Positions 26,006-56,880 of a stretch of 64,000 bases of DNA are shown here, piece by piece (within the stretch, counting starts at the first letter, position 1; the number at the start of each line of letters is the position of its first letter). This stretch comes from an uncultured Ruminococcus sp. (GTDB lineage Bacteria > Bacillota > Clostridia > Oscillospirales > Acutalibacteraceae), in the NCBI GenBank assembly GCA_902776375.1, contig CACYPV010000001.1, positions 48,600-112,599 on the forward strand, read 5' to 3'. A program made the position numbers and the translations under genes. Below the pieces are notes generated by a model. The model was not told the DNA's origin. It searched no databases and saw only the letters and a list, made by a program, of their open reading frames with translations.

Positions 26006-26489
26006 TGTTTTTTCGCCCCTGACTGCCGACGCGGTCATGCCGCCGGACTGGACTACATACGAGGAGCCGGAGCTCCCGAACGACGGGCAAGAGATAGTGA
26101 TCGAGCCGGAAAAGAAACAGGAGTCCAAGCAAGAGTCCAAGCAAGAATCCAAGCAGGAATCCAAGCAGGAATCCAAGCAGGAATCTAAGCAGGAGTCAAA
26201 GCAAGAATCCGAGCAAGCAACTACGGTTGAGCCTACGACCGCGGTTGTTGAGGAATCGACTGTTGTTGAGATGACTACCGCGCCTTCGCCAACCGAGGCC
26301 GGCAAGTCCGGTGACAGCGACAACACGCTGCTTAACGTGCTGTTCGTCATCATCCCGCTGCTGCTTGTAACTCTGTTAGCATTGATAGGCGTGCTTATAA
26401 TTCGAAATAGGAAAAATAAACAACCGCCCACACAGTCGCCCAACGGCGGATATCCCGGTCAGCCGCCGCATAACGGCAGCGGGAACTGA
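25995..26489 (+). CDS. KQES-repeat single-pass membrane protein
   Basis: A 164-residue protein. Its N-terminus (SPLTADAVMPPDWTTYEE) resembles the upstream protein. Eight perfect KQES repeats (residues about 41-72) follow, then a Thr/Val/Glu-rich stretch, one membrane helix (about 113-135) and a Pro/Asn/Gly-rich tail. The ATG at 25995, with GAGG 10 bases upstream, overlaps the preceding gene by 11 bases; a GTG at 25986 is the alternative. The charged repeat would be a stiff, hydrophilic spacer. Function unknown. Confidence 0.7.
   Translation: MSVNVFSPLTADAVMPPDWTTYEEPELPNDGQEIVIEPEKKQESKQESKQESKQESKQESKQESKQESKQESEQATTVEPTTAVVEESTVVEMTTAPSPTEAGKSGDSDNTLLNVLFVIIPLLLVTLLALIGVLIIRNRKNKQPPTQSPNGGYPGQPPHNGSGN
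26115..26210 (+). repeat. 12-bp tandem repeat encoding KQES x8
   Basis: Eight 12-base units (consensus AAGCAGGAATCC) differ only at synonymous third positions, so the peptide repeat is kept while the DNA drifts. Confidence 0.95.
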
Positions 26490-31218: not shown

Positions 31219-31254
31219 GTTTTTCACCCTATTTAGTGGTTAGTGGTTAGTGGT

Positions 31255-31286
31255 GTAGGGGCAACCCTTGCGGTTGCCCTAAAACG
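31255..31286. repeat. REP-like palindrome, copy e
   Basis: GTAGGGGCAACCC, loop TTG, CGGTTGCCCT: the family in inverted direction, starting with the CTACCCC-type end. Confidence 0.7.
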
Positions 31287-31300
31287 TTGTGCTTGTTTTT

Positions 31301-31327
31301 GGTCGACCGCAAGGGTCGCCCCTACGG
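31301..31327. repeat. REP-like palindrome, copy f
   Basis: GGTCGACCGCAAGGGTCG then CCCCTACGG: near-identical to copy b in the pgk-tpiA spacer about 14 kb away. Confidence 0.75.
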
Positions 31328-31384
31328 CTAAACCGCCAACGTTTCCGCCAATTTAATTACGCATAACGCATTACGAATTACGCA

Positions 31385-36548: not shown

Positions 36549-36567
36549 GCAGTCACCCCCCGGTTGT

Positions 36568-36738
36568 TAATGAATAGAGAATAATGAATAATGAATAATG
36601 AAGGGTCGCTTCGCTCCGATTATAATTGTTGCGGATGCAAGTGAAAAAATGAGCTTTCCCAACACAACACAGCATAATTATTCGGGTGCGGGCAGAGCCC
36701 GCCATTCACTGTTAATTGTTAATCGTTAATTGTTAATT
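36568..36738. repeat. Heptad-flanked intergenic element between regulator and kinase
   Basis: The left arm is five heptads (TAATGAA, with one TAGAGAA; 36568-36602). The core of about 105 bases includes a GCGGGC/GCCCGC hairpin (36688-36702). The right arm is four heptads (GTTAATT, one GTTAATC; 36711-36738). Left UAAUGAA can pair with right UUAAUUG at six of seven positions. Confidence 0.7.
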
Positions 36739-36756
36739 CGAATAACGTCTATGACG

Positions 36757-41515: not shown

Positions 41516-43045
41516 TCAGCTTTCCCAATACTTCCTGTCCAGGCTTCTGTATTGTATCGCCTCAAGCACGTGGTGGGACTGAATGATCTCCTCGCCGTCC
41601 AGATCGGCTATGGTGCGGGCGACCTTTAGCACGCGGTCGTAGGCTCGTGCGGTGAAGCCGAGCTTTTCAAAGGCGTTTTTCAGCTCTTTCTCCGCTTCCT
41701 TGTCGATAACGCAAAAGCGTTCAAACTGCGAGGCGTTTATTTTGGCGTTGCAGGTCGTGCTGCTCCCCTCAAATCTGCGCTGCTGGATCTCGCGCGCCTT
41801 GTTTACTCGCTTTTTGATATCGGCGGAGCACTCGGAAGATTCCTTTGCGCGCAGCTCCTCAAACTCAACTGCCGGCACCTCTACATGTATGTCAAAGCGG
41901 TCGAGCAGGGGACCCGAGACGCGGTTGAGGTATCGCCTTATCTTTTGTTCCGAACAGGTACAGCGGCGCTTAGGATCGCCGAAAAAGCCGCAGGGGCAGG
42001 GGTTCATGGCGGCGATGACCATTATGGTGCAGGGGTAGGTGCACTTTTGACCGGCTCGTGAAATGGTAATCGAGCTGTCCTCTATCGGCTGCCTGAGCAC
42101 TTCCAGAGCCGCGCGGGAGAATTCGGGAAGCTCGTCGAGGAAAAGCACGCCGTTGTGCGCCAGCGACACCTCGCCCGGGCGAATGTTTCCCGAGCCGCCG
42201 CCGCCAAGTCCTACAGGCGTTACCGTGTGATGAGGCGAGCGGAACGGGCGTTCGGTTATCAGCCCGTCGCTGTGCAGAGCGCCGGATATCGAATGTATTT
42301 TGGTGGTTTCGATCATTTCGTCAAAGGTCATGTCTGGCAGTATGGACGGCACGCGCTTGGCAAGCATGCTCTTGCCCGAGCCGGGAGGGCCTATCAGCAG
42401 TATGTTGTGACCGCCCGCGGCGGCTATTTCCATAGCGCGCTTGACCTCGAACTGACCCTTTACCTGAGAAAAATCGGGCTTGAACTTGTCTGATGAAATG
42501 TTGCAATCTTTTGCGGGCTTCGCGGGAGCCATCTCGATCTCGCCGTTCAAGACCGCCTTTAGCTGCCTGATATCCTTTATCGGATACACCTCGATGCCCT
42601 CTACCACCGACGCCTCTCGGCAGTTCTGTTCGGGGATGAACATTCTTTTTACGCCGCATTCGCGCGCGGTGATGACCATCGGCAGCACGCCGTTTATCCC
42701 GCGCAGATCTCCGTTCAGGCCGAGCTCTCCGATGAACGCGCAGTCGTCAAGATTTTTCCTGACATAGCCCGAAAGCCGCATAAGATTGACAGTTATCGGA
42801 AGGTCGTAGATAGGGCCTTCCTTTTTTATGTCGGCGGGCGCAAGGTTAAAAATAAAATGCGCCGAGGGCAGGTGAAAGCCGCAGTAATACATCGCTGAGC
42901 GCACCCTGTCGCGGCTCTCTTTTACCGCCGCGTCGGGCAGACCCACCAGATCCATAGCGGGCAATCCCTGACGCGAGGACGCCTCGACCGTGACCTTGTA
43001 GCCGTCGATACCGTTAATTCCGAAGCTTGTACATGAAACAACCAT
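41516..43045 (-). CDS. comM: ComM/YifB family AAA+ Mg-chelatase-like ATPase
   Basis: A 509-residue protein. The N-terminal lon-like domain ([26 protein letters not shown]) is followed by an AAA+ Mg-chelatase domain: Walker [10 protein letters not shown], Walker [15 protein letters not shown]-type zinc motif ([17 protein letters not shown]), and the C-terminal lid. ComM relatives help branch migration during natural transformation. The ATG at 43045 gives the family length; the extension to 43105 is rejected. Confidence 0.94.
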
Positions 43046-43197
43046 AATAACGCTCTCCCAATATATTGCTGACACAATCATACCATAAATTTTACCAAAA
43101 TACAATACTGTTATTACTAAATGTCAATAGGCTATTAGGAAAAATATACAAAAACTTTTTGCAGAAGTATGCATGTATACAGAAATCTCCGTAACGC

Positions 43198-43226
43198 TTG
43201 ACATTTGCCGAAAAATATGATAAAAT
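43198..43226 (+). promoter_or_regulatory. Strong promoter of the sigma-factor gene
   Basis: TTGACA (43198-43203) is consensus and TAAAAT (43221-43226) is one base off, spacer 17. It lies 33 bases before the ATG. Confidence 0.8.
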
Positions 43227-43259
43227 CTTGTTACAGAAAATCATATGCGGGGGTAAACA

Positions 43260-43847
43260 ATGTCTGAAAACAAAGTGCATTATGATTCCCTTTCAGATGA
43301 AGTTCTGGCCGAGTTTTCAAAAAACGGCGACGACAATGCCTTTAACGAGCTGGTTATCAGGTATCTGAACAAAATCAGATTTATCGCGCGCAAATACTCA
43401 GCTCAAGGCTATGAGCAGAACGACTTCGTTCAGGAGGGGCTAATGTCTCTTCTGTACGCCTGCAAAACATTCGACGCGCACGGGGGTAGTTCGTTTGGGA
43501 GATATGTTTCACTGATAGTGGAACGCAGGTATATATCGATCATTAGAAGCTCGCAGTCCAAAAAAGCGGTGCCCGACGCCATGCTGATCCATATCGACGG
43601 CTATGATGGGGAGTTGACCGATTATCTCGGCGACCCCGAGGAACAGCTTGAGTATAAGGAACAGCTGGATCAGGTTATGAAAAGGCTAAACGCTTTATTG
43701 TCGGCAAGGGAATACGAGGTGCTCATGCTCTTTGCCTCGGGACTCAGCTACAGCAAAATTTCACATAAGCTAAACATTTCCGAAAAGTCCGTTGACAACG
43801 CGCTCCAAAGGGCGCGGCGAAAGATCGGCACGAGTGAAATGTCCTGA
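43260..43847 (+). CDS. SigH-like RNA polymerase sigma factor
   Basis: A 195-residue sigma-70 family protein. Region 2 (about 25-95) has FNELVIRYLNKIRFIARKY and DFVQEGLMSLLYACKTFD, which recognises -10 and core. Region 4 (about 140-190) has LSAREYEVLMLFASGLSYSKISHKLNISEKSVDNALQRARRK. It is most like the stationary-phase/sporulation sigma-H group by length and region 2, but the usual neighbour rlmB is absent. No anti-sigma gene is adjacent. Confidence 0.85.
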   Translation: MSENKVHYDSLSDEVLAEFSKNGDDNAFNELVIRYLNKIRFIARKYSAQGYEQNDFVQEGLMSLLYACKTFDAHGGSSFGRYVSLIVERRYISIIRSSQSKKAVPDAMLIHIDGYDGELTDYLGDPEEQLEYKEQLDQVMKRLNALLSAREYEVLMLFASGLSYSKISHKLNISEKSVDNALQRARRKIGTSEMS

Positions 43848-43907
43848 ACAGAATGCTGCGCAGTTTTATGAGGGACAAATATTATACCAAAGTGAGGTAG
43901 ATGTCCA

Positions 43908-44192
43908 ATGTATGAAGACAAAACATTAGTGTGCAAAGACTGTGGCAACGAGTTTGTTTTCACTGCCGGCGAGCAGGAATTTTACGCTGAAAAGGGATTC
44001 GAGAACGAGCCCCAGCGCTGCAAGGAATGCAGACAGGCGCGTAAGAACGCTGTAAAAGCAAGCAGAGAATACTACGACACCACATGCGCCGAATGCGGCG
44101 GTCCTGCAAGGATCCCCTTCAAGCCTATGGAAGGCAAGACCTATTATTGCAGCGAATGCTTTGCGAAGAGAAAAGAAGCCGAAGCTCAGTAA
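43908..44192 (+). CDS. Zinc-ribbon protein
   Basis: A 94-residue protein with two zinc-ribbon-like parts. The first is CKDCGNEFVFTAGEQEFYAEKGFENEPQRCKECR, a known small zinc-ribbon domain type. The second is CAECGGPARIPFKPMEGKTYYCSECF, a CxDC-like ribbon. It could bind nucleic acid or protein. It follows the sigma factor by 60 bases without a terminator, so it may be co-expressed. Confidence 0.85.
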   Translation: MYEDKTLVCKDCGNEFVFTAGEQEFYAEKGFENEPQRCKECRQARKNAVKASREYYDTTCAECGGPARIPFKPMEGKTYYCSECFAKRKEAEAQ

Positions 44193-44225
44193 GCTTCTCG
44201 CAAATCATATAAAATGATTACACTG

Positions 44226-44254
44226 ACGGCAGGGTGAAAGCCCTGCCGTTTTTG
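44226..44254 (+). terminator. Terminator after the zinc-ribbon gene
   Basis: ACGGCAGGG and CCCTGCCGT form a 9-bp stem, followed by TTTTTG. Confidence 0.9.
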
Positions 44255-44334
44255 TGCGCTTAGCAGCCAAAGTTCATAAATATATCCATAGCTCCTGCTT
44301 TTAAAATAAAGGTTACAGTTTTGTCATCAAACGC

Positions 44335-44363
44335 TTGTCAAACCATTTGATTAGTGATACAAT
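44335..44363 (+). promoter_or_regulatory. Promoter of the yicC-remA-gmk cluster
   Basis: TTGTCA (44335-44340) and TACAAT (44358-44363) with 17 bases between, 40 bases before yicC. Confidence 0.65.
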
Positions 44364-44403
44364 AGCTTAATAAATAAGTATGCATACCGAAAGGAAGTTT
44401 TCC

Positions 44404-45288
44404 ATGATAAAATCAATGACAGGCTTCGGGCGGTGCGAGACGGAGATCCACGGCAGAGCGATCACTGTTGAGATAAAAAGCGTCAACCACCGCTATTTTG
44501 AGTTTTCATGCCGGGTCACTCGCGGCTACAGCTTTTTGGAGGATAAGCTGAAGGCTTTTGTGAACTCCCGAGTGGCTCGCGGCAAGATCGACATGTTCGT
44601 GTCCGTGGGCGCGGCCGACGACGTTCCCTGCGAGGTCGCCGTAAATCACAGCCTCGTGTCCGGCTATCTCGCCGCTATGAAGGAGATAAGCGATACCTAC
44701 GGCGTTGAGAACGACGCTACGGTAGTGTCGCTCACGCGTTTTCCCGACGTTCTCACGGTCAACAAGGCTCCCGTCGACGAGGAGGAGCTCACCGCCGACG
44801 TGCTTACAGCCGCGGGCGTCGCGCTCGATTCATTCGTCGCCATGCGCGAGGCGGAGGGCGCCAAAATGAAGGCTGACATCCTCGGCAGGGCGCAGACTAT
44901 TCTGGATATCGTGTCCGAGATCGAGGCGCGTTCTCCCGTTACCGTCGAGGAGTACGAAACCAGGTTGCTCGACCGCATCCGCCAGACGCTTGAGAATTTG
45001 AGCGTCGAGGTAGACGAGCAGAGGATACTGACCGAGGTCGCGGTGTTTGCCGATAAGGTAGCCGTGGCGGAGGAGACCGTCCGTCTGCGCAGCCACTTTG
45101 ACCAGCTCAGCGCCTTTATGGAGCATTCCGAGCCCGTCGGCAGAAAGCTCGACTTCATCATTCAGGAGATGAACCGCGAGGCGAACACCATAGGCTCAAA
45201 GGTACAGGACGCTGTGCTCGCGCACAAGGTAGTCGACATAAAGAGCGAGATCGAGAAGATCAGAGAACAAGTGCAGAATATAGAGTGA
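44404..45288 (+). CDS. yicC: YicC/YloC family endoribonuclease
   Basis: A 294-residue protein with the family start MIKSMTGFGR, EIKSVNHRYFE, and a C-terminal DUF1732 region (PVGRKLDFIIQEMNREANTIGSK). The YicC family includes endoribonucleases that act on RNA. GAAAGGAAG precedes the ATG at 44404; an in-frame ATG at 44380 is less well placed. It opens the housekeeping cluster. Confidence 0.94.
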   Translation: MIKSMTGFGRCETEIHGRAITVEIKSVNHRYFEFSCRVTRGYSFLEDKLKAFVNSRVARGKIDMFVSVGAADDVPCEVAVNHSLVSGYLAAMKEISDTYGVENDATVVSLTRFPDVLTVNKAPVDEEELTADVLTAAGVALDSFVAMREAEGAKMKADILGRAQTILDIVSEIEARSPVTVEEYETRLLDRIRQTLENLSVEVDEQRILTEVAVFADKVAVAEETVRLRSHFDQLSAFMEHSEPVGRKLDFIIQEMNREANTIGSKVQDAVLAHKVVDIKSEIEKIREQVQNIE

Positions 45289-45291
45289 TCA

Positions 45292-45394
45292 GAGGCTAGA
45301 AGCTAGAGGCTGGAAGCTAGAAGCTGGAAGCCGGAAGACAGGGAAATGTTTGTTAAAGAACATCTAGCATCTAGTAACTAGCCTCTAGCATCTA
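45292..45394. repeat. GCTAGA heptad element, copy 1 (yicC-remA)
   Basis: The left arm has six units of GGCTAGA/AGCTAGA/AGCTGGA type (45294-45335). A 25-base middle follows, then a right arm of five units of CATCTAG/TAACTAG/CCTCTAG type (45361-45394). Left GCTAGA and right TCTAGC are complementary, so transcripts can fold into a long heptad-paired stem. It ends 15 bases before the remA start. Confidence 0.85.
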
Positions 45395-45408
45395 AAAGAG
45401 GTACAAAC

Positions 45409-45660
45409 ATGAAACTTATAAATATCGGCTTTGGAAATCTTGTCAGCAGCGACAAGCTGATCGCCGTCGTGGCTCCCGATTCGGCGCCCGTAAAGCGAAT
45501 AGTTCAGGAGGCTAAGGCGAACGGGTTGCTTATCGACGCCACCTGCGGCAGAAAGTGCAAGTCGGTGCTTATCACCGACAGCAACCATGTTGTGCTTTCG
45601 GCGATATCCTGCGAGGCTATCCAAAACCGTTCTGAGGAAAGGGATGACAAGGATGAGTGA
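45409..45660 (+). CDS. remA: RemA-like DUF370 regulator
   Basis: An 83-residue protein of the RemA/DUF370 family (KLINIGFGNLVSSDKLIAVVAPDSAPVKR). In Bacillus it is a DNA-binding regulator of biofilm matrix genes. An RGG-like basic patch and a Cys-containing ATCGRKCKSVL are seen. It lies between yicC and gmk, as in Bacillus, and overlaps gmk by eight bases. Confidence 0.9.
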   Translation: MKLINIGFGNLVSSDKLIAVVAPDSAPVKRIVQEAKANGLLIDATCGRKCKSVLITDSNHVVLSAISCEAIQNRSEERDDKDE

Positions 45661-46225
45661 AAAGGGCAAGCTTGTGCTCTACACCGGCTGTTCCGGAGTA
45701 GGCAAGGGCACCATAATGAAGGAGCTTTTGAAGCGCGACCCTTCTATCCGTCTTTCGGTTTCAAACACCACGCGCAAGCCGCGTGAGGGCGAGATCGACG
45801 GCGTTCATTACAACTTTGTTTCGCGCGAGGATTTCATCAGGCTCGCCGACGCCGACGGCTATATCGAATACGCCGAGTACTGCAAAAACCTTTACGGCAC
45901 GCCGAAAAAGCAGGTGGAGGATATGCTGGCTCAGGGCTGCAACGTCTTTCTCGAGATCGAGGTCAAGGGCGGCTTGCAGGTCATGGAAAAGTTTCCCGAC
46001 GTGCTGAGCATATTTATCCTTCCGCCATCTGTCGCGGAGCTTGAGCGCCGTCTGCGCGAGCGCGGCACCGAGACCGAGGAGGTCATAAAGGAGCGGCTAA
46101 GTGAGGCTGAAAATGAGCTTAAGGTCGCTTCGCAGTATAAATATCAGGTCATCAACGACGACCTCGACCACGCGGTTGAGGAAGTCTTGTCAATATTACA
46201 TCAGCATACAAACAACATTATTTAA
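45653..46225 (+). CDS. gmk: Guanylate kinase
   Basis: A 190-residue P-loop enzyme that phosphorylates GMP to GDP. It has GCSGVGKGT (Walker A), NTTRKPREGE, HYNFVSREDF and FLEIEVKGG. The ATG at 45653 is chosen because AAAGGG is about 9 bases upstream; an in-frame ATG at 45644 lies too near it. Overlaps remA. Confidence 0.95.
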   Translation: MSEKGKLVLYTGCSGVGKGTIMKELLKRDPSIRLSVSNTTRKPREGEIDGVHYNFVSREDFIRLADADGYIEYAEYCKNLYGTPKKQVEDMLAQGCNVFLEIEVKGGLQVMEKFPDVLSIFILPPSVAELERRLRERGTETEEVIKERLSEAENELKVASQYKYQVINDDLDHAVEEVLSILHQHTNNII

Positions 46226-46237
46226 GGAGAGCATATT

Positions 46238-46444
46238 ATGCATAAGGTTAATGTAGACGAATTGTTTCAGGGCAAGCAGAGCAAATACGCGCTGGTAGTC
46301 GGCGTTTCAAAGCGCGCCAGACAGATCACCCAGACCTTCGAGGAGGAGGGCACCGTGACCGAGGATAAGCCCGTGCTTCTCGCCATCGACGAGATCAAAA
46401 ACCACAAAATCTCCATTTACGAGCCCGACGAGGATGAGCTCTAA
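46238..46444 (+). CDS. rpoZ: RNA polymerase omega subunit
   Basis: A 68-residue omega subunit (KYALVVGVSKRARQIT, KPVLLAIDEI), which helps assemble RNA polymerase. AAGGAG lies 8-9 bases before the ATG. It overlaps priA by 11 bases. coaBC, which follows rpoZ in Bacillus, is missing. Confidence 0.92.
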   Translation: MHKVNVDELFQGKQSKYALVVGVSKRARQITQTFEEEGTVTEDKPVLLAIDEIKNHKISIYEPDEDEL

Positions 46445-48872
46445 GCTGATCGCAAGGGTCGCCGTTGAAAAGGCGGCTTATTCCTTCGATAAAGAGTTCA
46501 GCTATCTTGTTCCCGACGCTTTTGCCGCTTGCTGCGCCGTCGGCAAGCGAGTGCTCGTGCCGTTCGGCAGGGGCAACAGCCGCCGACAGGGCATAGTGAC
46601 GGGGCTTGCAAAATCGGAAAATACCGAAGGCTTTAAAGAGCTCCTTTCAGTGCTCGACGATGAGCCCGTAATGTCCGAAAAAATGCTGGGCGTTGCGCGC
46701 TTCATGAAGGAACACTACTTCTGCACGCTGTACGACGCGGTAAAGACCATGCTCCCCGCGGGCATCAATTACAGGGTCACCACGGTTTACGGCGCGGCAA
46801 AAGCGGAGGACGTTGAGCCGGAGGACGATGAACAAAGGCGTATCTACGGCTATCTGCTCAAAAAGCGCGGCGCTGTCAAGCTTGAAAAAATACTTGACGA
46901 CTTCGCGCTTTCGGACAGCACCGTCCTCGACGAAATGGTGCGCGACGGCTTGCTTTACAAGTCCGATCAGGCGTTCCGCAAGGTGAACGACGCAGTCATG
47001 AAAATGGCGGCTTTGTCGCCGCAGACCGATCTTTCCGAGGTCAAGCTCACCCCTAAGCAGCGAGAGATCGCCGAGCTTTTGGAGCTTTCGGGCGCGGCTT
47101 CCGTAAAGGAGCTGCGCTACTTTACGGGCGTTTCCGCTTCGGTCATCGATTCGCTGTTCAAAAAAGGAATTATCTACTTTTTTGACGAAGAGGTCTTTCG
47201 CACCGAGGAGCTTCGCGCCGATGAAACAGCGGGGGAGATAGAGCTGTCAAGCGAGCAGCAGGCAGCCTGCGACGATCTTTTCCGCGAGTATTCTGAGGAA
47301 AAAGCGCATGTCAGCCTGCTTTACGGCGTTACCGGCTCAGGCAAAACAAGCGTGTTTTTGAAGCTTATCGAGCGCGCCGTACCCGACGGCAAAGGCATTA
47401 TAGTCATGGTGCCCGAAATTTCGCTTACGCCGCAGTTCGTGGCGCAGTTCGCCGGCCGCTTCGGCGAAAAGATAGCCGTTTTTCACAGCGCCCTTTCGCT
47501 GGGGGAAAGGCTCGACGCTTACAAGCGCGTCAAAAAGGGACTTGCGCAGATAGTAATCGGCACGCGCAGCGCGGTTTTTGCGCCATTTGAAGATTTGGGG
47601 CTCATAATCATGGACGAGGAGCAGGAGTACAGCTACAAGTCCGAGAGCGCGCCTAGATACCATGCGCGTGAGATAGCCATGTTCCGCTGCTCGCAGAACA
47701 ATGGCTTGCTCGTGCTCAGCTCAGCCACGCCCAGCGTCGAGACCTACTACTACGCAAAAAGCGGCAGGTACTCGCTGAACACGCTCACTAAGCGCTACGG
47801 CGCCGCCGTTCTGCCCGACGTTATTACGGCGGACATGAACAACGAGATACAAAGCGGCAACGCTTCGGGCTTTTCCGACGTGCTGCTGCAAAATATAGAA
47901 TACAATTTGGAGCACGGCAGGCAGTCCATCCTGTTGCTCAACAGGCGAGGTCACAACCCTTTCGTCACCTGTACGCAGTGCGGCGAGGCGGTCACCTGTC
48001 CCAACTGCTCCATTTCGCTGACCTACCACAGCCGCAACAACCGCCTTATGTGCCACTACTGCGGCTACTCGCTGCCATACAGGAACGAGTGCCCCACTTG
48101 TCACGCAAAGTCGCTCAGGATGGGCGGCTCGGGCACGCAGAAGGCGGAGGAGGATATCGCGAAGATATTCCCGGACGCGCGTATCTTGCGCATGGACACC
48201 GACGCTACGTCCTCAAAATCGAGCTACGAAAAGATGATCTCGGCGTTCTCGCGCGGAGATTACGACATCCTTGTCGGCACGCAGATGGTGGCAAAGGGGC
48301 TTGACTTCCCGAACGTCACCCTTGTGGGCGTGCTCAACGCAGACCAAATGCTTTACGCCGACGATTACCGCAGCTACGAGCGGACGTTCTCGCTGCTGAC
48401 CCAGGTAGTGGGCAGAAGCGGCAGGGGAAAGGACAAAGGGCTCGCGGTCATCCAGACCTACACGCCCGATAATCTGATAATCGCAATGGCGGCAAAGCAG
48501 GACTACGACGCGTTTTTCAACACCGAGATCACCGTCCGTCAGGCTATGCTCTACCCGCCGTTCGCGGACATTTGCCTCGTAGGCTTCGTGGGTGAGAACC
48601 AAGCGCTCACGCTCAGGGCGGCAAACGCCTTTTTGGGTGAGTTTTCAGGCTTGGCAAGCAGGGAATATCCCTCTTTGCCGATAAGGGTATTGGGACCCTC
48701 GCCCGCGACGGTCGTAAAGGTCAGCAATAAATTCCGCTATAAGATAATGATAAAATGCAGAAACAACAAGGCGTTCAGGCAGTTGCTTTCATCGGCGCTG
48801 ATAAGCTTCGGCGACAAGAGCGAGTTCTCAAAGGTGACCGCATACGCGGATATGAACGCTTTGAAAAATTGA
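46434..48872 (+). CDS. priA: Primosomal replication helicase PriA
   Basis: An 812-residue 3'-5' helicase that restarts stalled forks. The N-terminal DNA-binding region covers 1-110. The helicase core starts at about 280, with GVTGSGKTSVFL (Walker A) and IIMDEEQEYSYK (DEAH-like). Zinc-binding Cys pairs follow (CTQC, CPNC, CHYC, CPTC), then VGTQMVAKGLDFPNV and the C-terminal helicase motifs. All key parts are present. Confidence 0.96.
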   Translation: MSSKLIARVAVEKAAYSFDKEFSYLVPDAFAACCAVGKRVLVPFGRGNSRRQGIVTGLAKSENTEGFKELLSVLDDEPVMSEKMLGVARFMKEHYFCTLYDAVKTMLPAGINYRVTTVYGAAKAEDVEPEDDEQRRIYGYLLKKRGAVKLEKILDDFALSDSTVLDEMVRDGLLYKSDQAFRKVNDAVMKMAALSPQTDLSEVKLTPKQREIAELLELSGAASVKELRYFTGVSASVIDSLFKKGIIYFFDEEVFRTEELRADETAGEIELSSEQQAACDDLFREYSEEKAHVSLLYGVTGSGKTSVFLKLIERAVPDGKGIIVMVPEISLTPQFVAQFAGRFGEKIAVFHSALSLGERLDAYKRVKKGLAQIVIGTRSAVFAPFEDLGLIIMDEEQEYSYKSESAPRYHAREIAMFRCSQNNGLLVLSSATPSVETYYYAKSGRYSLNTLTKRYGAAVLPDVITADMNNEIQSGNASGFSDVLLQNIEYNLEHGRQSILLLNRRGHNPFVTCTQCGEAVTCPNCSISLTYHSRNNRLMCHYCGYSLPYRNECPTCHAKSLRMGGSGTQKAEEDIAKIFPDARILRMDTDATSSKSSYEKMISAFSRGDYDILVGTQMVAKGLDFPNVTLVGVLNADQMLYADDYRSYERTFSLLTQVVGRSGRGKDKGLAVIQTYTPDNLIIAMAAKQDYDAFFNTEITVRQAMLYPPFADICLVGFVGENQALTLRAANAFLGEFSGLASREYPSLPIRVLGPSPATVVKVSNKFRYKIMIKCRNNKAFRQLLSSALISFGDKSEFSKVTAYADMNALKN

Positions 48873-48873
48873 G

Positions 48874-48894
48874 AGTTGAAAGTTAAAAGTTGAA
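48874..48894. repeat. Short heptad run after priA
   Basis: AGTTGAA, AGTTAAA, AGTTGAA: three 7-bp units two bases after the priA stop codon. Confidence 0.5.
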
Positions 48895-48931
48895 TGACGA
48901 ACAAACGGCATCTAATAAGGAGAATAAAACA

Positions 48932-49420
48932 ATGGCTTTGAGAAATATTATTGAAGACGGCGACGAGGTCTTGACCAAAAAATGCAGACCCGTCACCAAA
49001 TTTGACCGCAGGCTCCATATCCTGCTCGACGACATGGCAGAAACCATGCACCACGCCAACGGCGTTGGTCTGGCGGCTCCGCAGGTGGGCATACTGCGCC
49101 GCGTCGCGGTCATCGATGTTAGTCCTGAGCAGAACAAGGTTATCGAGCTTGTCAACCCGCAGATAATCGCCTACAGCGGCAAGCAGGTCGGCAACGAGGG
49201 CTGCCTGTCCTTCCCCGGACAGTGGGGCATTGTGAAGCGCCCTAATTACGTTAAGGTAAGGGCGCAGGATCGCCACGGCGAAGAATTTGAGATCGAGGGC
49301 AAGGAGCTGCTAGCGCGCGCCTTCTGCCACGAGATAGACCACCTCAACGGCGTTGTGTTCAAGGACGTCTGCGACCGGATGCTGACCAAGAAAGAAATAG
49401 AGGAAATGAATAAAAGCTAG
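48932..49420 (+). CDS. def: Peptide deformylase
   Basis: A 162-residue metalloenzyme that removes the N-formyl group from new proteins. The three motifs are GVGLAAPQVG, EGCLSFPG and HEIDHLNG (Cys and two His bind the metal; Glu is catalytic). AAGGAG is upstream of the ATG at 48932. The TAG stop codon is part of the first heptad of the following repeat. Paired with fmt, as in many bacteria. Confidence 0.97.
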   Translation: MALRNIIEDGDEVLTKKCRPVTKFDRRLHILLDDMAETMHHANGVGLAAPQVGILRRVAVIDVSPEQNKVIELVNPQIIAYSGKQVGNEGCLSFPGQWGIVKRPNYVKVRAQDRHGEEFEIEGKELLARAFCHEIDHLNGVVFKDVCDRMLTKKEIEEMNKS

Positions 49421-49545
49421 AAGCTGGAAGCTAGAGGCTAGAAGCTAAAGGCTAGAAGCTAGAGGCCGGAAGCTAGAAGCTGGAAGCCGAGATAGACTGT
49501 TAGATAATGAACATCTAGCATCCAGCGTCTAGCATCTAGCATCTA
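49415..49545. repeat. GCTAGA heptad element, copy 2 (def-fmt)
   Basis: The left arm has eleven units (49415-49491), mainly AGCTAGA and GGCTAGA with AGCTGGA variants. The middle is about 20 bases. The right arm has five units (49512-49545), mainly CATCTAG. The left arm contains the def stop codon and the right arm ends 16 bases before the fmt start. Confidence 0.88.
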
Positions 49546-49561
49546 TTCCTCCGGAGGTACT

Positions 49562-50476
49562 ATGAAACTTGTATATATGGGCACGCCTGATTTTGCCGTG
49601 CCCGCGCTTGAAAAGCTGGCGGCTGTCCACGAGGTCGCTGCGGTGTTCACGCAGCCCGACAAGCCCGTCGGCAGAAAACAAATACTGACGCCGCCCGACG
49701 TAAAGGTTTGCGCCGAGCGGTTGGGGATACCGGTTTGTCAGCCCGCCTCTATGAAAACTCCCGAGGCATTCGAGCTGCTCAAAAGCTTTGCGCCCGAGGT
49801 CATCGTCGTGGCGGCTTACGGGCAGATACTCCCTAAGGCGGTGCTCGATCTGCCTGCCTACGGCTGCGTGAATATCCACGGCTCGCTGCTGCCCAAGTAC
49901 CGCGGCGCGGCGCCTATTCAGCAGGCGGTGCTCAACGGTGACGCGGTAACGGGCGTTACCACAATGCTGATGGACGTGGGGCTCGACACGGGCGACATCC
50001 TTTTGACAAAGGAAACCCCCATCGGCGAGAACGAGACCTCCGCCGAGCTTTTCGACCGCCTGTCGCTTTTGGGCGGCGAGCTGATCTTGGAAACGCTCGA
50101 CGCACTGGCTCAGGGCAGCGTAACGCCTAAAAAGCAGGACGAAGCCCTTGCGACCCACACTTCAAAAATCGACAAAAGCCTTTGCCCGATAGACTTTACA
50201 GCTACGGCTCAGGCTGTCCACAACCTTATCAGAGGCTTGTATTCGTGGCCTGTCGCCACCGCTCAGATCGGCGGCAAGCGCGTCAAGATACACAAGGCGC
50301 GCATCGCGAAGGGCAGCGGCTCGGCAGGTGTTATCCTCAGCGTCAAGCCCTTTGTCATCGCCTGCGGCGAGGGCGCTGTAGAGATACTTGAATTGCAGCC
50401 CGAGGGCAAAAAGAAGATGTCCGCCGAGGCATACGCTGCCGGACATGATCTTAAAATCGGCGATAAATTGATTTAA
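49562..50476 (+). CDS. fmt: Methionyl-tRNA formyltransferase
   Basis: A 304-residue enzyme that formylates Met-tRNA-fMet. The formyltransferase domain has YMGTPDFAVP, AAYGQILP, and HGSLLPKYRGAAPI (catalytic Asn-His-Asp region), and the C-terminal domain starts at about 205. The ribosome site is part of a perfect palindrome CCTCCGGAGG, in which the Shine-Dalgarno faces its own complement. Confidence 0.97.
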   Translation: MKLVYMGTPDFAVPALEKLAAVHEVAAVFTQPDKPVGRKQILTPPDVKVCAERLGIPVCQPASMKTPEAFELLKSFAPEVIVVAAYGQILPKAVLDLPAYGCVNIHGSLLPKYRGAAPIQQAVLNGDAVTGVTTMLMDVGLDTGDILLTKETPIGENETSAELFDRLSLLGGELILETLDALAQGSVTPKKQDEALATHTSKIDKSLCPIDFTATAQAVHNLIRGLYSWPVATAQIGGKRVKIHKARIAKGSGSAGVILSVKPFVIACGEGAVEILELQPEGKKKMSAEAYAAGHDLKIGDKLI

Positions 50477-50493
50477 TTCTTTTGGAGAATATT

Positions 50494-51204
50494 ATGTTCT
50501 ACTTTGATTACACCTATATCATTTTCATGATACCCTGCATAATCATCACCCTGATTTGCCAGGTCCGCGTCAAGACCGCGTTTTCCAAGTACGGCAAGGT
50601 GCCAAACTCGCGCGGAATGACCGGCGCTCAGGCGGCTGAGTATGTGCTGCGCCAAAACGGCGTTACGAATGTGCGCATCGAGCACGTTCAGGGCAGCCTT
50701 ACCGACCATTACGATCCGCGCACCAACGTTATCCGCCTGTCCGATACGGTTTATAACGTAAATTCCGTGGCGGCTGTGGGCGTTGCGGCTCACGAGGCAG
50801 GTCATGCGGTGCAGACCGCAAAGAATTATCTTCCCAACAAGCTCCGCGGCGCTATCCTGCCCGTGGCGCGTATCGGTTCGAGCATAAGCTGGATCCTTAT
50901 TATTCTCGGCTTCATGTTCGCCTACCGCTCGTCGACGCCGAATTCCGTCGGCTTATATCTGCTTTACGCCGGTATAATCCTGTTTTCCGCGTCCGTGCTG
51001 TTTACCGTGATAACCCTGCCTGTTGAGTTCGACGCGTCGCGCCGCGCTTTAAAGTGCATACGGGAGAACAACCTTCTGCGCGAGGACGAGTACAAGGGCG
51101 CTAAAAGCGTGCTGACCGCCGCCGCGATGACCTACGTCGCCTCGGCGCTTGTAGCGATAATGCAGCTTTTAAGACTGCTGCTTCTCGCAAGAAGAAGAAA
51201 CTGA
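50494..51204 (+). CDS. YugP-like membrane zinc metallopeptidase
   Basis: A 236-residue membrane protein with an N-terminal helix (about 2-22), HEAGHAVQ zinc motif (about 95-102), three further helices, and a basic end. The sequence GLPVEFDASRRA-type segment (here LPVEFDASRRALK) is typical of the YugP family, whose substrates are unknown. It lies between fmt and rsmB, a place used by this gene in some Clostridia. GGAG lies 7-8 bases before the ATG at 50494. Confidence 0.9.
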   Translation: MFYFDYTYIIFMIPCIIITLICQVRVKTAFSKYGKVPNSRGMTGAQAAEYVLRQNGVTNVRIEHVQGSLTDHYDPRTNVIRLSDTVYNVNSVAAVGVAAHEAGHAVQTAKNYLPNKLRGAILPVARIGSSISWILIILGFMFAYRSSTPNSVGLYLLYAGIILFSASVLFTVITLPVEFDASRRALKCIRENNLLREDEYKGAKSVLTAAAMTYVASALVAIMQLLRLLLLARRRN

Positions 51205-51211
51205 ATTTAGA

Positions 51212-51320
51212 AGCTAGAGGCTAGAAGCTAGAGGCTAGAGGCTGGAAGCTAGAAGCCGGATTAGAAAACGGACGTATGATTATAACTATCTAGCATCTAG
51301 CATCTAGCGTCTAGCATCTA
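51212..51320. repeat. GCTAGA heptad element, copy 3 (metallopeptidase-rsmB)
   Basis: The left arm has seven units (51212-51260), AGCTAGA and GGCTAGA alternating. The middle is 26 bases. The right arm has five units (51287-51320), TATCTAG, CATCTAG and CGTCTAG. It starts eight bases after a stop codon and ends 16 bases before the next ATG, the same placing as copies 1 and 2. Confidence 0.88.
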
Positions 51321-51336
51321 AAAAGGGGTGAACCAA

Positions 51337-52674
51337 ATGCCGAGCGCGCGACAGATCGCATTTAACGTTTTGCTTAAAATTGAACAGGACGGGGCTTATT
51401 CAAATCTCGCGCTCAACAACGCCATTCGCGAAAGCAAGCTTGGCGGCGTGGACAGCTCCTTCGTTTCGGCGCTGGTTTACGGCGTGCTGGAGCGGCAGAT
51501 CACCCTTGACTACATCATAAAGCAGTATTCTAAAATTCCTTTAAGGAAAATTGAAATCAAAACAAAAATCATTCTTCGCATGGGGCTCTATCAGCTTTTG
51601 TTCATGGACAAGGTGCCGGACAGCGCCGCCGTGAACGAGAGCGTTATCCTCGCCAAAAAGCAAAAGCTGCAAAAATCGGCGGGTTTTATCAACGGCATCC
51701 TGCGCAGCGTGACCCGGACAGACCCGCCGTACACCCTGCCCGACGAAAAGGACAAGGTCATTTATTACAGCGTTAAATATTCGGCGCCGCAGGAGCTTAT
51801 AAGGCTGTGGCTTGATTCTTACGGCGAACCGAACACCGTGAAGCTCTGCGAAAGCCTGAGCGGAAGACCCAAGCTTTTTATCCGCGTAAACACGCTTAAA
51901 ACCGATAAAAACGCTCTAAAGGAGCAGTTTTTGAAAGAGGGCGTTGAGTGTAAGGACGTGCCTGTTCTCGACAACGCGCTCAGCCTGTCGCGCACAGGCA
52001 GCATCGAGCGGCTCGACTCATATAAAAACGGGCTGTTCCATGTTCAGGACTTGTCCTCACAGCTTTGTGTGCACTTCCTGTCTCCGCAGCCGCGCGAGCT
52101 CATGCACGACGTCTGCTCGGCTCCGGGCGGCAAGGCGTTCACTGCCGCGCAGTATATGCAGAACCGCGGAAAGCTCTGCTGCTATGACCTGTTCGATCAC
52201 AAGGTAAAGCTGATCTCCGACGGCGCAAGGCGGTTGGGGATAACTATCATATCCGCCGCAAAGCGCGACGCCGCCGAAGGCGCCGTACTTCCGCTTGCTG
52301 ACAAGATACTCTGCGACGTGCCTTGCAGCGGTTTGGGCATACTTTCGCGCAAGCCCGAGATCAGGGCAAAAAGCGACCTTATATCAAAGGAGCTGCCTGA
52401 GCTTCAATACAAGATATTGTGCCGCAGCGCCAAGTCGCTGGCTGTCGGCGGCAGGCTGGTTTACTCCACCTGCACATTAAATCCCGCCGAAAACGGCGAA
52501 AATGTGCGCCGCTTCCTTTCGAAGCACCCCGATTTTGCGGGCGTGCCGCTAGAGCTTCCCGAGGGGGTAAGCCGGGCGTTTGAGGAGCAGCCTTACGAGA
52601 TAACCCTCATGCCGCACTGTTCAGGCACCGACGGCTTTTACATAGCTCTGCTTGAAAGAAGGTCGGCAACATGA
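51337..52674 (+). CDS. rsmB: 16S rRNA (cytosine(967)-C5)-methyltransferase
   Basis: A 445-residue enzyme with an N-terminal NusB-like RNA-binding domain (about 5-130) and a C-terminal SAM methyltransferase domain. Motifs: DVCSAPGGKAFT (SAM), DVPCSG (first catalytic Cys) and VYSTCTLNP (second Cys). AAAGGGG lies 8 bases before the ATG at 51337; a GTG at 51328 would add three residues. It overlaps rlmN (ATGA). Confidence 0.95.
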   Translation: MPSARQIAFNVLLKIEQDGAYSNLALNNAIRESKLGGVDSSFVSALVYGVLERQITLDYIIKQYSKIPLRKIEIKTKIILRMGLYQLLFMDKVPDSAAVNESVILAKKQKLQKSAGFINGILRSVTRTDPPYTLPDEKDKVIYYSVKYSAPQELIRLWLDSYGEPNTVKLCESLSGRPKLFIRVNTLKTDKNALKEQFLKEGVECKDVPVLDNALSLSRTGSIERLDSYKNGLFHVQDLSSQLCVHFLSPQPRELMHDVCSAPGGKAFTAAQYMQNRGKLCCYDLFDHKVKLISDGARRLGITIISAAKRDAAEGAVLPLADKILCDVPCSGLGILSRKPEIRAKSDLISKELPELQYKILCRSAKSLAVGGRLVYSTCTLNPAENGENVRRFLSKHPDFAGVPLELPEGVSRAFEEQPYEITLMPHCSGTDGFYIALLERRSAT

Positions 52675-53696
52675 TCGACATAAAATCAATGACCCGTGAC
52701 GAGCTGCAAAGCTTTATTACCGAACAGGGTTTTCCGAGGTTCCGCGCCGACCAGATCGGCGGCTGGCTGAACAAGGGCGTGACGGATTTTGACGAAATGC
52801 GGAACATTCCCGCCGAGCTCAGAAAAAAATTGAAATCAATTTGTTACATTTCTGTTGCAATTATTGAAAAAAAACAAGTTTCAAGGTATGATAAAACAGT
52901 AAAATACCTTTTTTCGTTCAACGACGGCGAATGTGTAGAGGCTGTGCTGATGGATTATCATCACGGCATGTCGATTTGCATCTCCACGCAGGTGGGCTGC
53001 CGAATGGGCTGCACCTTCTGCGCAACGGGAAAAAGCGGTTTTTCACGCGATCTTACCGCGTCTGAAATGCTAGCTCAAATAGAAGCCGCTCAGCGCGACG
53101 CGGGAGTGAGGATCTCCAACGTAGTGCTGATGGGAATGGGCGAACCGCTTGATAATTTTGACAACGTAGTGCGGTTCCTCGAGCTCGTCGGGTGCGAGCA
53201 GGGGCTGAATATCGGCATGAGGCACATCACGCTTTCGACCTGCGGGCTCGTACCAAAGATCTACGAGCTTGCAAAGCTCAAATTGCAGATAAACCTCGCG
53301 GTGTCGCTTCACGCGCCGAACGATGAAATACGCGCGCGCACTATGCCGGTCGCAAAGGCGTATCCAATGGAACAGCTTTTGAAAGCCTGCCGCGACTATT
53401 TTGACGCCACGGGCAGACGCGTGACCTTTGAGTACGCGCTGATCAGCGGCGTGAACGACGGCGACGCATGCGCCGAAGAGCTGGGAAAAAAGCTGCGCGG
53501 CATGAACTGCCACGTAAACCTTATCCCCGTCAACAGCGTTGAGGGGACGGGATATCTGAAAAGCAATTTACAAAGACAGCAGTCTTTTGCAAATATCCTC
53601 GCCGCTTATGGAGTAACGGCGACTGTAAGGCGGACGCTGGGCAGCGACATCGACGCTTCCTGCGGTCAGCTAAGAAGAAAGTACATAAAGAATTAG
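52671..53696 (+). CDS. rlmN: 23S rRNA (adenine(2503)-C2)-methyltransferase
   Basis: A 341-residue radical-SAM enzyme that methylates A2503 of 23S rRNA and A37 of some tRNAs. The cluster motif is CRMGCTFCATGKSGF. VLMGMGEPLDN and SLHAPND follow, and the C-terminal Cys (SCGQL) forms the methyl-carrier pair. Overlaps rsmB by four bases. Confidence 0.96.
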   Translation: MIDIKSMTRDELQSFITEQGFPRFRADQIGGWLNKGVTDFDEMRNIPAELRKKLKSICYISVAIIEKKQVSRYDKTVKYLFSFNDGECVEAVLMDYHHGMSICISTQVGCRMGCTFCATGKSGFSRDLTASEMLAQIEAAQRDAGVRISNVVLMGMGEPLDNFDNVVRFLELVGCEQGLNIGMRHITLSTCGLVPKIYELAKLKLQINLAVSLHAPNDEIRARTMPVAKAYPMEQLLKACRDYFDATGRRVTFEYALISGVNDGDACAEELGKKLRGMNCHVNLIPVNSVEGTGYLKSNLQRQQSFANILAAYGVTATVRRTLGSDIDASCGQLRRKYIKN

Positions 53697-54447: not shown

Positions 54448-56880
54448 ATGGATAAATATCTGGGAAAAAGGCTGGATGGCCGATACGAGATCCACGAGCT
54501 AATAGGCATCGGCGGCATGGCGAATGTTTATCGCTGCACCGACACCGTTGACGACCGCGAGGTCGCTATCAAAATCTTAAAGGATGAGTTTCTCAATAAC
54601 GAGGAGTTCATCCGACGCTTCAAAAACGAATCAAAGGCTATCGCCATGCTTTCGCATCCGAATATCGTAAAGGTATACGACGTAAGCTTCGGCGACATGA
54701 TCCAATATATCGTAATGGAGTACATAGACGGTATCACTCTTAAGGAGTATATCGAACGCCAGGGCATCATAGAGTGGAAGGACGTGCTCCATCTTGTCAC
54801 TCAGGTGCTTCGCGCTTTGCAGCACGCTCACGAGAGCGGCATCGTTCACCGCGATATCAAGCCGCAGAACATCATGCTGCTTCAGGACGGCACCATAAAG
54901 GTGACCGACTTCGGTATTGCGCGCTTCTCCGACAAAGCAACGCGCACCATGACCGATCAGGCTATCGGCTCGGTGCATTACATCGCGCCCGAGCAGGCGC
55001 GCGGCGATATCACCGACGGCAAGACAGACATCTATTCCGTGGGCGTAATGCTCTATGAAATGCTTACGGGCAAGCTTCCGTTTGAGGGCGACAGCGCCGT
55101 GACTGTAGCGCTAATGCAGCTTCAGTCAACTCCCAAGATGCCGCGCGAGGTCAATCCCTCTATCCCCGTAGGTCTTGAGCAGATCACAATGCGCGCAATG
55201 GCTAAAAAGCCCGAGCAGCGCTACACCTCCGCAGCGGAGATGCTCAGCGATATCGAGCGTTTCAGGCTCAATCCCTCGATCGTGTTCGAGTATGCGAATC
55301 CCTTTGAGGACGATCAGCCCACGCGCTATGTGAATACCAAAAAGAAGGCGGACGCCGAAAAGAAAAAGGCTCAGAAGGCAGCGCTCAAAGCGCAAAAGGC
55401 GCAAAAGTCCGTTAAAGCCGTAAAGGCGGCAAAGCCCGATAAGGCTGTTAAAGCGGTGGTCGCCAATAAGGCAATTAATGCCGCAAAACAGGAAAAGCCC
55501 GCAAATGAGGCGGATCCCGCGAAGCCTGCGAATGATGCAAAGCCAGCTAAGACCGCAAATGATGCAAAGCAGGGGAATCCTGTAAAGGCAGCAAAGCCCA
55601 AGAAGGCTGTAAAGGCGGCAAATCCGCAAAAGGCTAAAAAAGCGCAAAAGCCGACTAAGACTCAAAAGCCGGCAAAGGCTCAAAAGGCGCCGAAGCCCGA
55701 AAAGGAAAAGAAGCCCAAAAAGGCTCGCCGTGACGACGAGGAGGGCTACAAGGAGCAGAGCGGCGTGTTCCACGCGATCAAGGGCGTTATCATAGCCGCT
55801 GTAGCGGTAGGCCTTGTGTTCTTCGTTATTTTCCTGATAAAGGGCATCAACTCAGCTCAGGTCAAGGACGTTAATGTTCCCAACTATGTCGGCAGATCGC
55901 TTGCCGAGGCTAAGAGCAACAATCCCGACGATTTCCAGTTTGAATTAAAAAACCGTTTTGATCAGACCCAGGCGCTGGGCACGGTTCTGGCTCAGGAACC
56001 TGCTGTCGGAATGACCGTTAAGGCGGGTTCGACCGTAATACTTACCGTAAACAGCAACGGCGACGAGATCGCTATTCCGTTCTTCAATTCCTCGACGACC
56101 AATCAGGAAGCAGCCGAAAGCAAGCTTCGAGAGCTTAGTCTTATTCCCGAGGTCGTTCTGGTAGAGGGCGCTCAGGCTGATAAGGATACCGTTATCGGAA
56201 CCTTCCCGACAGCGGGAGCTAAGGCGCCGATAGGCTCAACCGTGTATGTATATGTTTCAAAGGGCGATCGCGCCAAGACCATTTCCATTCCGCCGGTGCT
56301 CCGCATGTCGTTATACGAAGCTCAGCAGGAGCTCGATAATCTTGGACTGACCGTTGAAACAATTTATGACGACGACAGCGGCGAAAAGAAAGACACCGTA
56401 ATAGGCACCTCTCCTCTGCCTTACGGCAAGGTGGAAAAGGGCACAGTGGTGACCCTTACCGTAAGCTCCGGCGTTGGCGATAAGAGCAAGAAGAAGATCC
56501 ATTTTGACTTGCCCACCGGAATCGATAAGGATATTGAAATGACCGTTTTGATCGACGGCGTTGAAAACAGCGAACTGTCAAAGACCGTCAATCCTTACGT
56601 AGAGCCGAAGGTGACGCTTGAGCTTGAGGGCTCCGGCAAGAAGGAAGTCGAGGTCAGACTTGACGGACAGCCGTACCGCGAATTCACCATCGACATGTCT
56701 ACGGGCGAGATAACCGATACCCAGATCTACGAGTATGTCGTTCCCACCGAGGAGCCCACCGAATATATCGAGCCCACGGATTACTACGACGATACTCCCA
56801 CGGATTATTACGATCCCGACGCAGATCCCGACATTTATTATGATGACACTCAATACTACCAGAATCCTTACGAGCCCTAA
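54448..56880 (+). CDS. prkC: PASTA-domain Ser/Thr protein kinase
   Basis: An 810-residue membrane kinase. The kinase domain covers about 10-270 (GIGGMANVY, Lys42 in AIKIL, HRDIKPQN with Asp136, Asp154 in DFGIA), all intact. A highly Lys/Ala-rich linker follows (about 290-430), then one membrane helix (about 445-467), and three PASTA domains (about 470-680), which bind muropeptides. The C-terminal tail is rich in Asp, Tyr and Thr (YYDDTPTDYYDPDADP). It controls wall growth, division or dormancy exit. The linker is much longer than in Bacillus PrkC. Confidence 0.95.
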   Translation: MDKYLGKRLDGRYEIHELIGIGGMANVYRCTDTVDDREVAIKILKDEFLNNEEFIRRFKNESKAIAMLSHPNIVKVYDVSFGDMIQYIVMEYIDGITLKEYIERQGIIEWKDVLHLVTQVLRALQHAHESGIVHRDIKPQNIMLLQDGTIKVTDFGIARFSDKATRTMTDQAIGSVHYIAPEQARGDITDGKTDIYSVGVMLYEMLTGKLPFEGDSAVTVALMQLQSTPKMPREVNPSIPVGLEQITMRAMAKKPEQRYTSAAEMLSDIERFRLNPSIVFEYANPFEDDQPTRYVNTKKKADAEKKKAQKAALKAQKAQKSVKAVKAAKPDKAVKAVVANKAINAAKQEKPANEADPAKPANDAKPAKTANDAKQGNPVKAAKPKKAVKAANPQKAKKAQKPTKTQKPAKAQKAPKPEKEKKPKKARRDDEEGYKEQSGVFHAIKGVIIAAVAVGLVFFVIFLIKGINSAQVKDVNVPNYVGRSLAEAKSNNPDDFQFELKNRFDQTQALGTVLAQEPAVGMTVKAGSTVILTVNSNGDEIAIPFFNSSTTNQEAAESKLRELSLIPEVVLVEGAQADKDTVIGTFPTAGAKAPIGSTVYVYVSKGDRAKTISIPPVLRMSLYEAQQELDNLGLTVETIYDDDSGEKKDTVIGTSPLPYGKVEKGTVVTLTVSSGVGDKSKKKIHFDLPTGIDKDIEMTVLIDGVENSELSKTVNPYVEPKVTLELEGSGKKEVEVRLDGQPYREFTIDMSTGEITDTQIYEYVVPTEEPTEYIEPTDYYDDTPTDYYDPDADPDIYYDDTQYYQNPYEP

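Follow-up and report, generated by a model that had tools for sequence, protein, structure and literature searches.

We analyzed a stretch of 64,000 nucleotides (here called the window) from contig CACYPV010000001.1 of an uncultured Ruminococcus species, focusing on a repeat of 7-base units that occupies three intergenic gaps of a housekeeping gene cluster. The genome is a draft of 2.6 Mb and is 98.9% complete. By direct reading, each of the three gaps contains an array of GCTAGA units on the left that faces an array of TCTAGC units on the right; we term an array an F arm when it runs in the GCTAGA direction on the coding strand and an R arm when it runs in the TCTAGC direction. In each copy, the left arm consists of RGCTAGA units and begins at or just past a stop codon, and the right arm is of the TCTAGCN type and ends 14 to 16 bases before the next start codon. 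Copy 1 separates the stop codon of yicC (TGA, 45286-45288) from the remA start codon (ATG, 45409), copy 2 lies between def and fmt (ATG, 49562), and copy 3 lies between an upstream TGA (51202-51204) and the rsmB start codon (ATG, 51337). Pfam matches to YicC, RemA-like, PriA, deformylase, formyltransferase, Zn_peptidase_2, and RsmB support the gene names in this cluster.

Tandem Repeats Finder reported period-7 repeats for the left arms of all three copies and for the right arms of copies 2 and 3. The facing heptad arms that had been described from the sequence alone are confirmed. Also confirmed was the position of the def stop codon (TAG, 49418-49420) inside the first unit of the copy 2 array. 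None of the copies contains an open reading frame (ORF), and all three are located between protein genes and not in a 23S rRNA gene. When window positions 43000-53000 were searched against Rfam, no family was matched; the single chance match had an E value of 0.87 and scored far under the gathering score. Coordinates of the copies and of arrays of other unit families in the window are collected in Table 1.

Table 1. Heptad arrays and capped intergenic regions in the window
Feature	Position	Strand	Basis
Left (F) arm of copy 1, built of RGCTAGA units, downstream of yicC stop	~45292..45337	+	Direct reading, Tandem Repeats Finder
Copy 1 spacer, holds GGAAATGTTTG (by eye), close to inner-motif part GGAAACGTTTG	45338..45360	+	
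Right (R) arm of copy 1, terminal ATCTA 14 nt upstream of remA start	45361..45394	+	
Left (F) arm of copy 2, def stop TAG part of array	~49414..49487	+	Direct reading, Tandem Repeats Finder
Right (R) arm of copy 2, terminal ATCTA 16 nt upstream of fmt start	49512..49545	+	Direct reading, Tandem Repeats Finder
Left (F) arm of copy 3, begins TAGA	51208..51259	+	Direct reading, Tandem Repeats Finder
Right (R) arm of copy 3, terminal TCTA 16 nt upstream of rsmB start	51288..51320	+	Direct reading, Tandem Repeats Finder
Stop-locked array of another family at priA end (TGA, then GAGTTGAAAGTTAAAAGTTGA)	48870..48894	+	
Intergenic region capped by a WKCGTAA array (locked to a TAA stop) and a CACTAAC-type array (ahead of the next start)	31219..31384	-	
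Intergenic region capped by a TTAACAA-type array and, past the body, a CATTATT-type array ahead of the next start	36549..36756	-	

The three copies are members of a genome-wide repeat. A pattern of three units, GCTAGANGCTAGANGCTAGA, matched the genome 219 times (109 + 110) and the same pattern read backwards did not match at all; therefore, the GCTAGA arrays are not a product of chance. The original prediction had placed a paired element inside one housekeeping cluster. The cluster indeed contains three copies and these are paired, but the 219 matches show that the element is not confined there, and of the 58 GCTAGA arrays that were listed for about a quarter of the genome, many stand without a partner arm in their gap. 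Searching the host and its relatives for the arm patterns, as had been proposed, revealed the pattern in 2 of 100 genus genomes searched, including its own, and arrays of GCTAGA units in many phyla (at least 115 stretches).

The preference for a 7-base period extends beyond the GCTAGA unit. Our sample of the genome comprised 679 kb, of which 443 kb, including the window, were unselected for arrays and about 236 kb were picked for listed arrays; genes in the sample were called with our own script. We found 90 period-7 arrays in the complete sample, falling into many unit families. When the count was redone on the unselected 443 kb alone, 33 intergenic arrays had a period of 7, 5 had a period of 14, 1 had a period of 8, and the remaining periods from 4 to 13 were not represented, so that by count (33 versus 0 to 1) these 7-nucleotide tandem units are over-represented heptanucleotide simple sequence repeats. 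Within genes of the same 443 kb, arrays had periods of 9 (four) and 12 (two). Another species of the genus (G155) contained 21 intergenic period-7 arrays and 0 to 1 of each other period, and a further genus genome (G126) had a small period-7 excess (4 versus 0 to 1).

The orientation of the arrays with respect to genes was regular. All 30 GCTAGA arrays located within 25 bases past a stop codon were in the F direction, those within 60 bases ahead of a start codon comprised 12 R and 2 F, and all 11 pairs sharing a gap were ordered F and then R. For 29 regions with at least two arrays of any family, all F arms preceded all R arms in 28, a count that is partly built in since the F direction of a family was fixed after the regions had been viewed. 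A count of G and C in the first and last arrays requires no naming of families and gave a similar picture, with G exceeding C in the first array of 26 regions and C exceeding G in the last array of 27. The paired arrays of these regions shared 6-mers in inverted orientation in 5 cases and in direct orientation in none; the other 24 had no 6-mer in common, as a region is often capped by arrays of two different families.

A recurrent inner motif, TTAGCRGAARCGTT, accompanies the caps. In the sample from which it was chosen and in which it was then counted, it had a 7-periodic array on its outer side at 13 of 13 places, compared to 57 of 822 random intergenic points, and an array on its inner side at none of the 13. 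In a held-out test at 12 places, 7 passed, 2 just missed (11 of 14), and 3 were without an array. The motif is commoner in its own genome (22 matches) than in other genomes of the genus (0 to 6 each among the matches listed), and the window copies contain at most a trace of it, seen by eye in copy 1. The bodies of several capped regions (L155, L156, L166, L213, L405, L408, and L409) share modules of the GTCATCCTGAGCG...GTCGAAGGATCCCC, GTAGGGGCGCACCC, and GAAGGGTCGCTTCGCTCC types.

We also observed that the outer ends of arrays coincide with stop codons. The stop codon ahead of GCTAGA arrays was TAG in 21 of 30 cases, versus 80 of 590 genes, and was in register with the array in 20 of the 30. 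For all families together, stop codons recurred at +7 and +14 in 29 of 590 genes, compared to 0, 3, 1, 4, and 1 at lags of 5, 6, 8, 9, and 10. The unit family tends to fit the stop codon, with RGCTAGA at TAG, WKCGTAA at TAA, and AGTTGAG at TGA. In a set of 28 stop-locked arrays drawn from all families, the repeat extended 0 bases upstream of the stop codon in 15 and no more than 2 bases in 24. This boundary test is stronger than the lag-7 count outside the genus (30 of 668), where naive ORFs were used and the excess is partly built in because an ORF entering a heptad array must end inside it. On the start side, the outer end was again at TAG in 8 of 14 arrays, plus 13 of 26 others. Since no stop codon is needed there, TAG seems to be the element's own end, which the gene shares as its stop codon.

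The arrays are further linked to genes for S23p, the 23S rRNA intervening-sequence protein (PF05635). We detected four matches to PF05635 in the genome of the window and none in 14 control genomes, and 101 of 161 genus genomes had a match. At one locus (L319), an S23p ORF lies in a gap capped by GCTAGA and TCTAGC, the same caps as those of the window copies. By eye, all four S23p genes of this genome (L319-L322) are flanked by heptad arrays that face each other, and four different families are represented; two of the four reached a score of 8 on both flanks, and one contains an in-frame stop. We then have 33 genus loci (L319-L351), consisting of these 4 and 29 new ones from the best-scoring list of 30, some of them near copies (L326 and L328); 2 of the 33 sequences, with an in-frame stop, were left out of the S23p profile. 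At period 7, a score of at least 10 was reached on the left flank in 24 loci and on the right flank in 24, and both flanks scored at least 8 in 22. Periods 5, 6, 8, 10, and 11 yielded none and period 9 yielded one right flank. Inverted sharing of 6-mers between the flanks exceeded direct sharing in 29 loci and fell below it in 2, one of which is L321 of the genome under study. For comparison, period-7 arrays were on both flanks of 10 of 542 genes of our own sample and of 0 of 41 fmt genes. The arrays that bracket S23p genes differ widely in sequence between loci.

Outside the genus, the link between S23p and arrays is weaker. For 18 loci, 16 from plasmids (of 27 matches, with three near copies, L359, L360, and L364) and 2 from IMG/VR, a period-7 array was on a flank in 12 and on both flanks in 5; periods 8 and 11 were found once each on a flank, and period 8 twice on both. 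The plasmid loci with an array numbered 11, all cyanobacterial, with Azospirillum remaining under the threshold and Gemmatirosa lacking a period-7 array. Inverted sharing exceeded direct sharing in 13 of the 18 and was lower in 5, and the arrays of L366 plainly run in the same direction. A larger IMG/VR set of 24 of 29 loci, from which identical upstream 60-base sequences had been dropped and in which near copies remain, shares contigs with the 2 IMG/VR loci above; here, an array was present on a flank in 15 and on both flanks in 7, with 0 to 1 for other periods, and inverted sharing was higher than direct sharing in 17 and lower in 6. Random window pairs from array-selected loci had an array on a flank in 63 of 600 cases and on both in 3 of 600. 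Phage records searched for S23p gave no match. On some cyanobacterial plasmids (L354, L356, L366, and L369), S23p ORFs are located between cas6 and cas4, between cas10 and cmr3, or between the two ribonucleotide reductase genes. In a passage of PMC10053308, PF05635 is described as resembling Avd, an accessory protein of diversity-generating retroelements. A literature search by title and abstract, with subscription journals mostly outside its coverage, found among the results listed no paper joining S23p genes with facing heptad arrays generally.

Comparison of relatives indicated that the occupied sites turn over. In 15 relatives that were measured, the def-fmt spacer ranged from 10 to 390 bases and contained the GCTAGA element in none, with arrays of other families seen by eye in three; among more distant genus members, the spacer was -4 to 68 bases. 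Two species with 93% identity over the fmt locus carried different arrays in the same gaps. One array that appears to be homologous between the close species G155 and G090, at another site (site B) and of a unit family other than that of the window copies, had about 11 units in one species and 1 or 2 in the other. The original prediction had viewed the copies as one element type that has expanded, contracted, and perhaps moved; the change in unit number and the many sites bear this out, and movement is what we infer from them.

Considering that similar arrays bracket S23p genes in the genus and in cyanobacteria, these findings suggest that the arrays are mobile-like DNA and not switches for operon control. 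We consider it somewhat probable that the three window copies, which lack an ORF, belong to an interspersed inverted-repeat element related to S23p elements and intervening sequences (IVSs). The ends of such an element would be arrays of 7-base units facing each other, with an outer end that is often TAG, or TAA or TGA in other families. The element would be placed downstream of a stop codon and upstream of the ribosome binding site that follows, its end often doubling as the stop codon of the gene. A coding version would hold an S23p gene, and the group would therefore resemble the IVSs of 23S rRNA genes in build. The elements may move or be copied with S23p taking part, and transcripts of the arms could form a stem that RNase III is able to cut.

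Several observations weigh against this interpretation. The cap sequences vary between loci, unlike classical terminal repeats, and 3 of the 12 held-out inner motifs adjoin another module instead of an array. S23p matches are missing from 60 of 161 genus genomes, and the genome under study has 4 S23p genes compared to 58 GCTAGA arrays in a quarter of its length; among 115 array-selected loci elsewhere, just 2 contained an S23p-like ORF. Outside the genus, GCTAGAR arrays were 39 F and 19 R at stop codons and 13 F and 9 R at start codons, and Acidobacteriaceae loci L041, L088, and L093 have their arms ordered R and then F, opposite to the order in the genus. Among the 161 genus genomes, we saw neither excision nor insertion nor an exact empty site; the nearest of these genomes is about 79% identical over the fmt locus, too distant for a close search for empty sites of the window copies. 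Searches of the draft genome for Y1_Tnp and for the DDE_3 transposase, the partners of two known kinds of short repeat, gave no match. For the heptamer repeats of Xanthomonas, passages of PMC4692102 report that they mostly keep the same gene neighbors, call nearby loci more stable, and describe no tie to mobile elements as having been found.

Two candidate identities were dropped on the basis of these searches: repetitive extragenic palindromic (REP) elements mobilized by REP-associated tyrosine transposases (RAYTs), as a Y1 transposase was not found in the genome, and IS630/Tc1-type miniature inverted-repeat transposable elements (MITEs), as their DDE_3 partner was not found. A TA target duplication, as in IS630/Tc1-type MITEs, could not be demonstrated by eye; outer ends often start with TAG, but an exact empty site was not found. 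A search for reverse transcriptase (PF00078) detected two fragments at contig ends (L317 and L318), which we take to be group II intron-like and for which no link to the arrays was seen. Elsewhere in the window, tandem repeats of 18 to 27 bases (55395-55689) are located within a long ORF (54448-56880), and 12-base tandem repeats (TCCAAGCAAGAA) occupy positions 26118-26217.

The alternative that survives best is plain replication slippage, in which 7 bases would be the favored slip length of the polymerase and arrays would grow in tolerated gaps without any mobile element, their growth being halted by purifying selection once they reach a stop codon or a ribosome binding site. Variation in unit number fits such a process, as does the report that, among long simple repeats, those with heptanucleotide units are the most frequent in the majority of genomes studied and are linked to polymerase slippage (Mrazek 2007, as cited in passages of PMC4679880 and PMC4692102). 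We regard this explanation as rather unlikely, as it leaves unexplained why the same unit occurs at many places, why F precedes R in every GCTAGA pair, why one inner motif lies beside arrays of different families, why a particular outer phase is preferred, and why S23p genes lie between the arms.

The original prediction proposed that the copies are selected regulatory or RNA-processing elements, in which a stem ahead of the ribosome binding site sets the expression of remA, fmt, and rsmB. Their placement between stop codon and ribosome binding site is in agreement with this idea. Of the folding that had been predicted, the plus strands of copies 1 and 3 gave strong signals (z scores of -5.8 and -6.1), but that of copy 2 was weak (-1.75), and the minus strands folded as well (-3.4, -4.2, and -5.7 for copies 1, 2, and 3). 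Cognate arms also paired no better than swapped ones, since the duplex energies of ten cognate arm pairs totaled -500.8 and the permutations averaged -500.2 (P = 0.46); thus, there is no sign of arm coadaptation, which argues against a tuned RNA switch. Together with sites that are not kept in relatives and the many arrays lacking a partner arm, these results make it unlikely that the elements are operon switches, and we assign control of the three genes a very low probability; if they affect remA, fmt, or rsmB at all, this is probably incidental. Least probable of all is that the arrays are retained as three-frame stops behind genes (7 being 1 modulo 3) to back up termination after read-through, an idea in line with the recurrence of stops at +7 and +14 and with the three-frame stops noted for TAACTGA repeats in a passage of PMC4679880 but at odds with the same units and the same TAG outer end lying antisense before starts, where stops serve nothing.

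The interpretation of the copies as members of an interspersed element related to S23p may be extended, although we consider the extension itself doubtful. Facing heptad arrays with S23p might represent an undescribed class of mobile element present in more than one phylum, in which S23p would serve copying, perhaps with a reverse transcriptase acting in trans, and the ends would be written in 7-base steps from stop-codon-like triplets. The window copies would then be nonautonomous offspring, and the IVSs of 23S rRNA genes would be copies that had landed in rRNA. Speaking against such a class, the named S23p loci with arrays belong only to the genus and to cyanobacteria, and the arm direction differs in Acidobacteriaceae. 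Should facing heptad arrays prove to be the ends of S23p elements, the question of why bacteria favor 7-base tandem repeats and that of what role the widespread S23p/four-helix-bundle genes have would merge into one. Part of the fast-changing intergenic DNA of the genus would be explained as well, and there would be reason for caution in reading such arrays as operon regulators.

MITEs, REP elements, and bacterial interspersed mosaic elements (BIMEs) are short and interspersed, with inverted ends and composite bodies, and lack a gene of their own, and the present copies are like them in these respects. Unlike them, the caps described here vary in sequence and unit number, and neither Y1_Tnp nor DDE_3 was found in the genome. 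A literature search by unit sequence yielded no paper on bacterial repeats, judging by titles and abstracts. The original view that no element with this layout has been described is too strong, as publications on other units already report that heptanucleotides are over-represented, form inverted pairs, and overlap stop codons. According to passages of PMC4692102, the GGGAATC heptamers of Xanthomonas are intergenic 7-base units near gene ends that vary in number, differ in length and sequence between related species, and form convergent inverted pairs, of which 70 and 75 cases were reported. The present elements differ by having many unit families per genome, stop-locked arrays, an inner motif, and site turnover, whereas those passages describe most of the Xanthomonas repeats as keeping their flanking genes and having no tie to mobile elements, and do not mention S23p. 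The TAACTGA arrays of Beggiatoaceae, as described in part of PMC4679880, are likewise intergenic heptamers, with 13 sets overlapping the upstream stop codon and with stops in three frames; most of them are direct repeats that share one orientation and lie shortly upstream of start codons, and a single inverted case is described, in contrast to the often paired, facing arms observed here. Similar in build to the proposed coding version are the 23S rRNA IVSs that hold an S23p ORF between stem-forming ends, as in Coxiella, where passages of PMC4990558 report two or three GACAGAT heptamers before the S23p ORF, in a number that varies between strains, and excision by RNase III. The window copies differ from these IVSs in lying in protein operons and in being without an ORF, and yet at the related locus L319 an S23p ORF is present.

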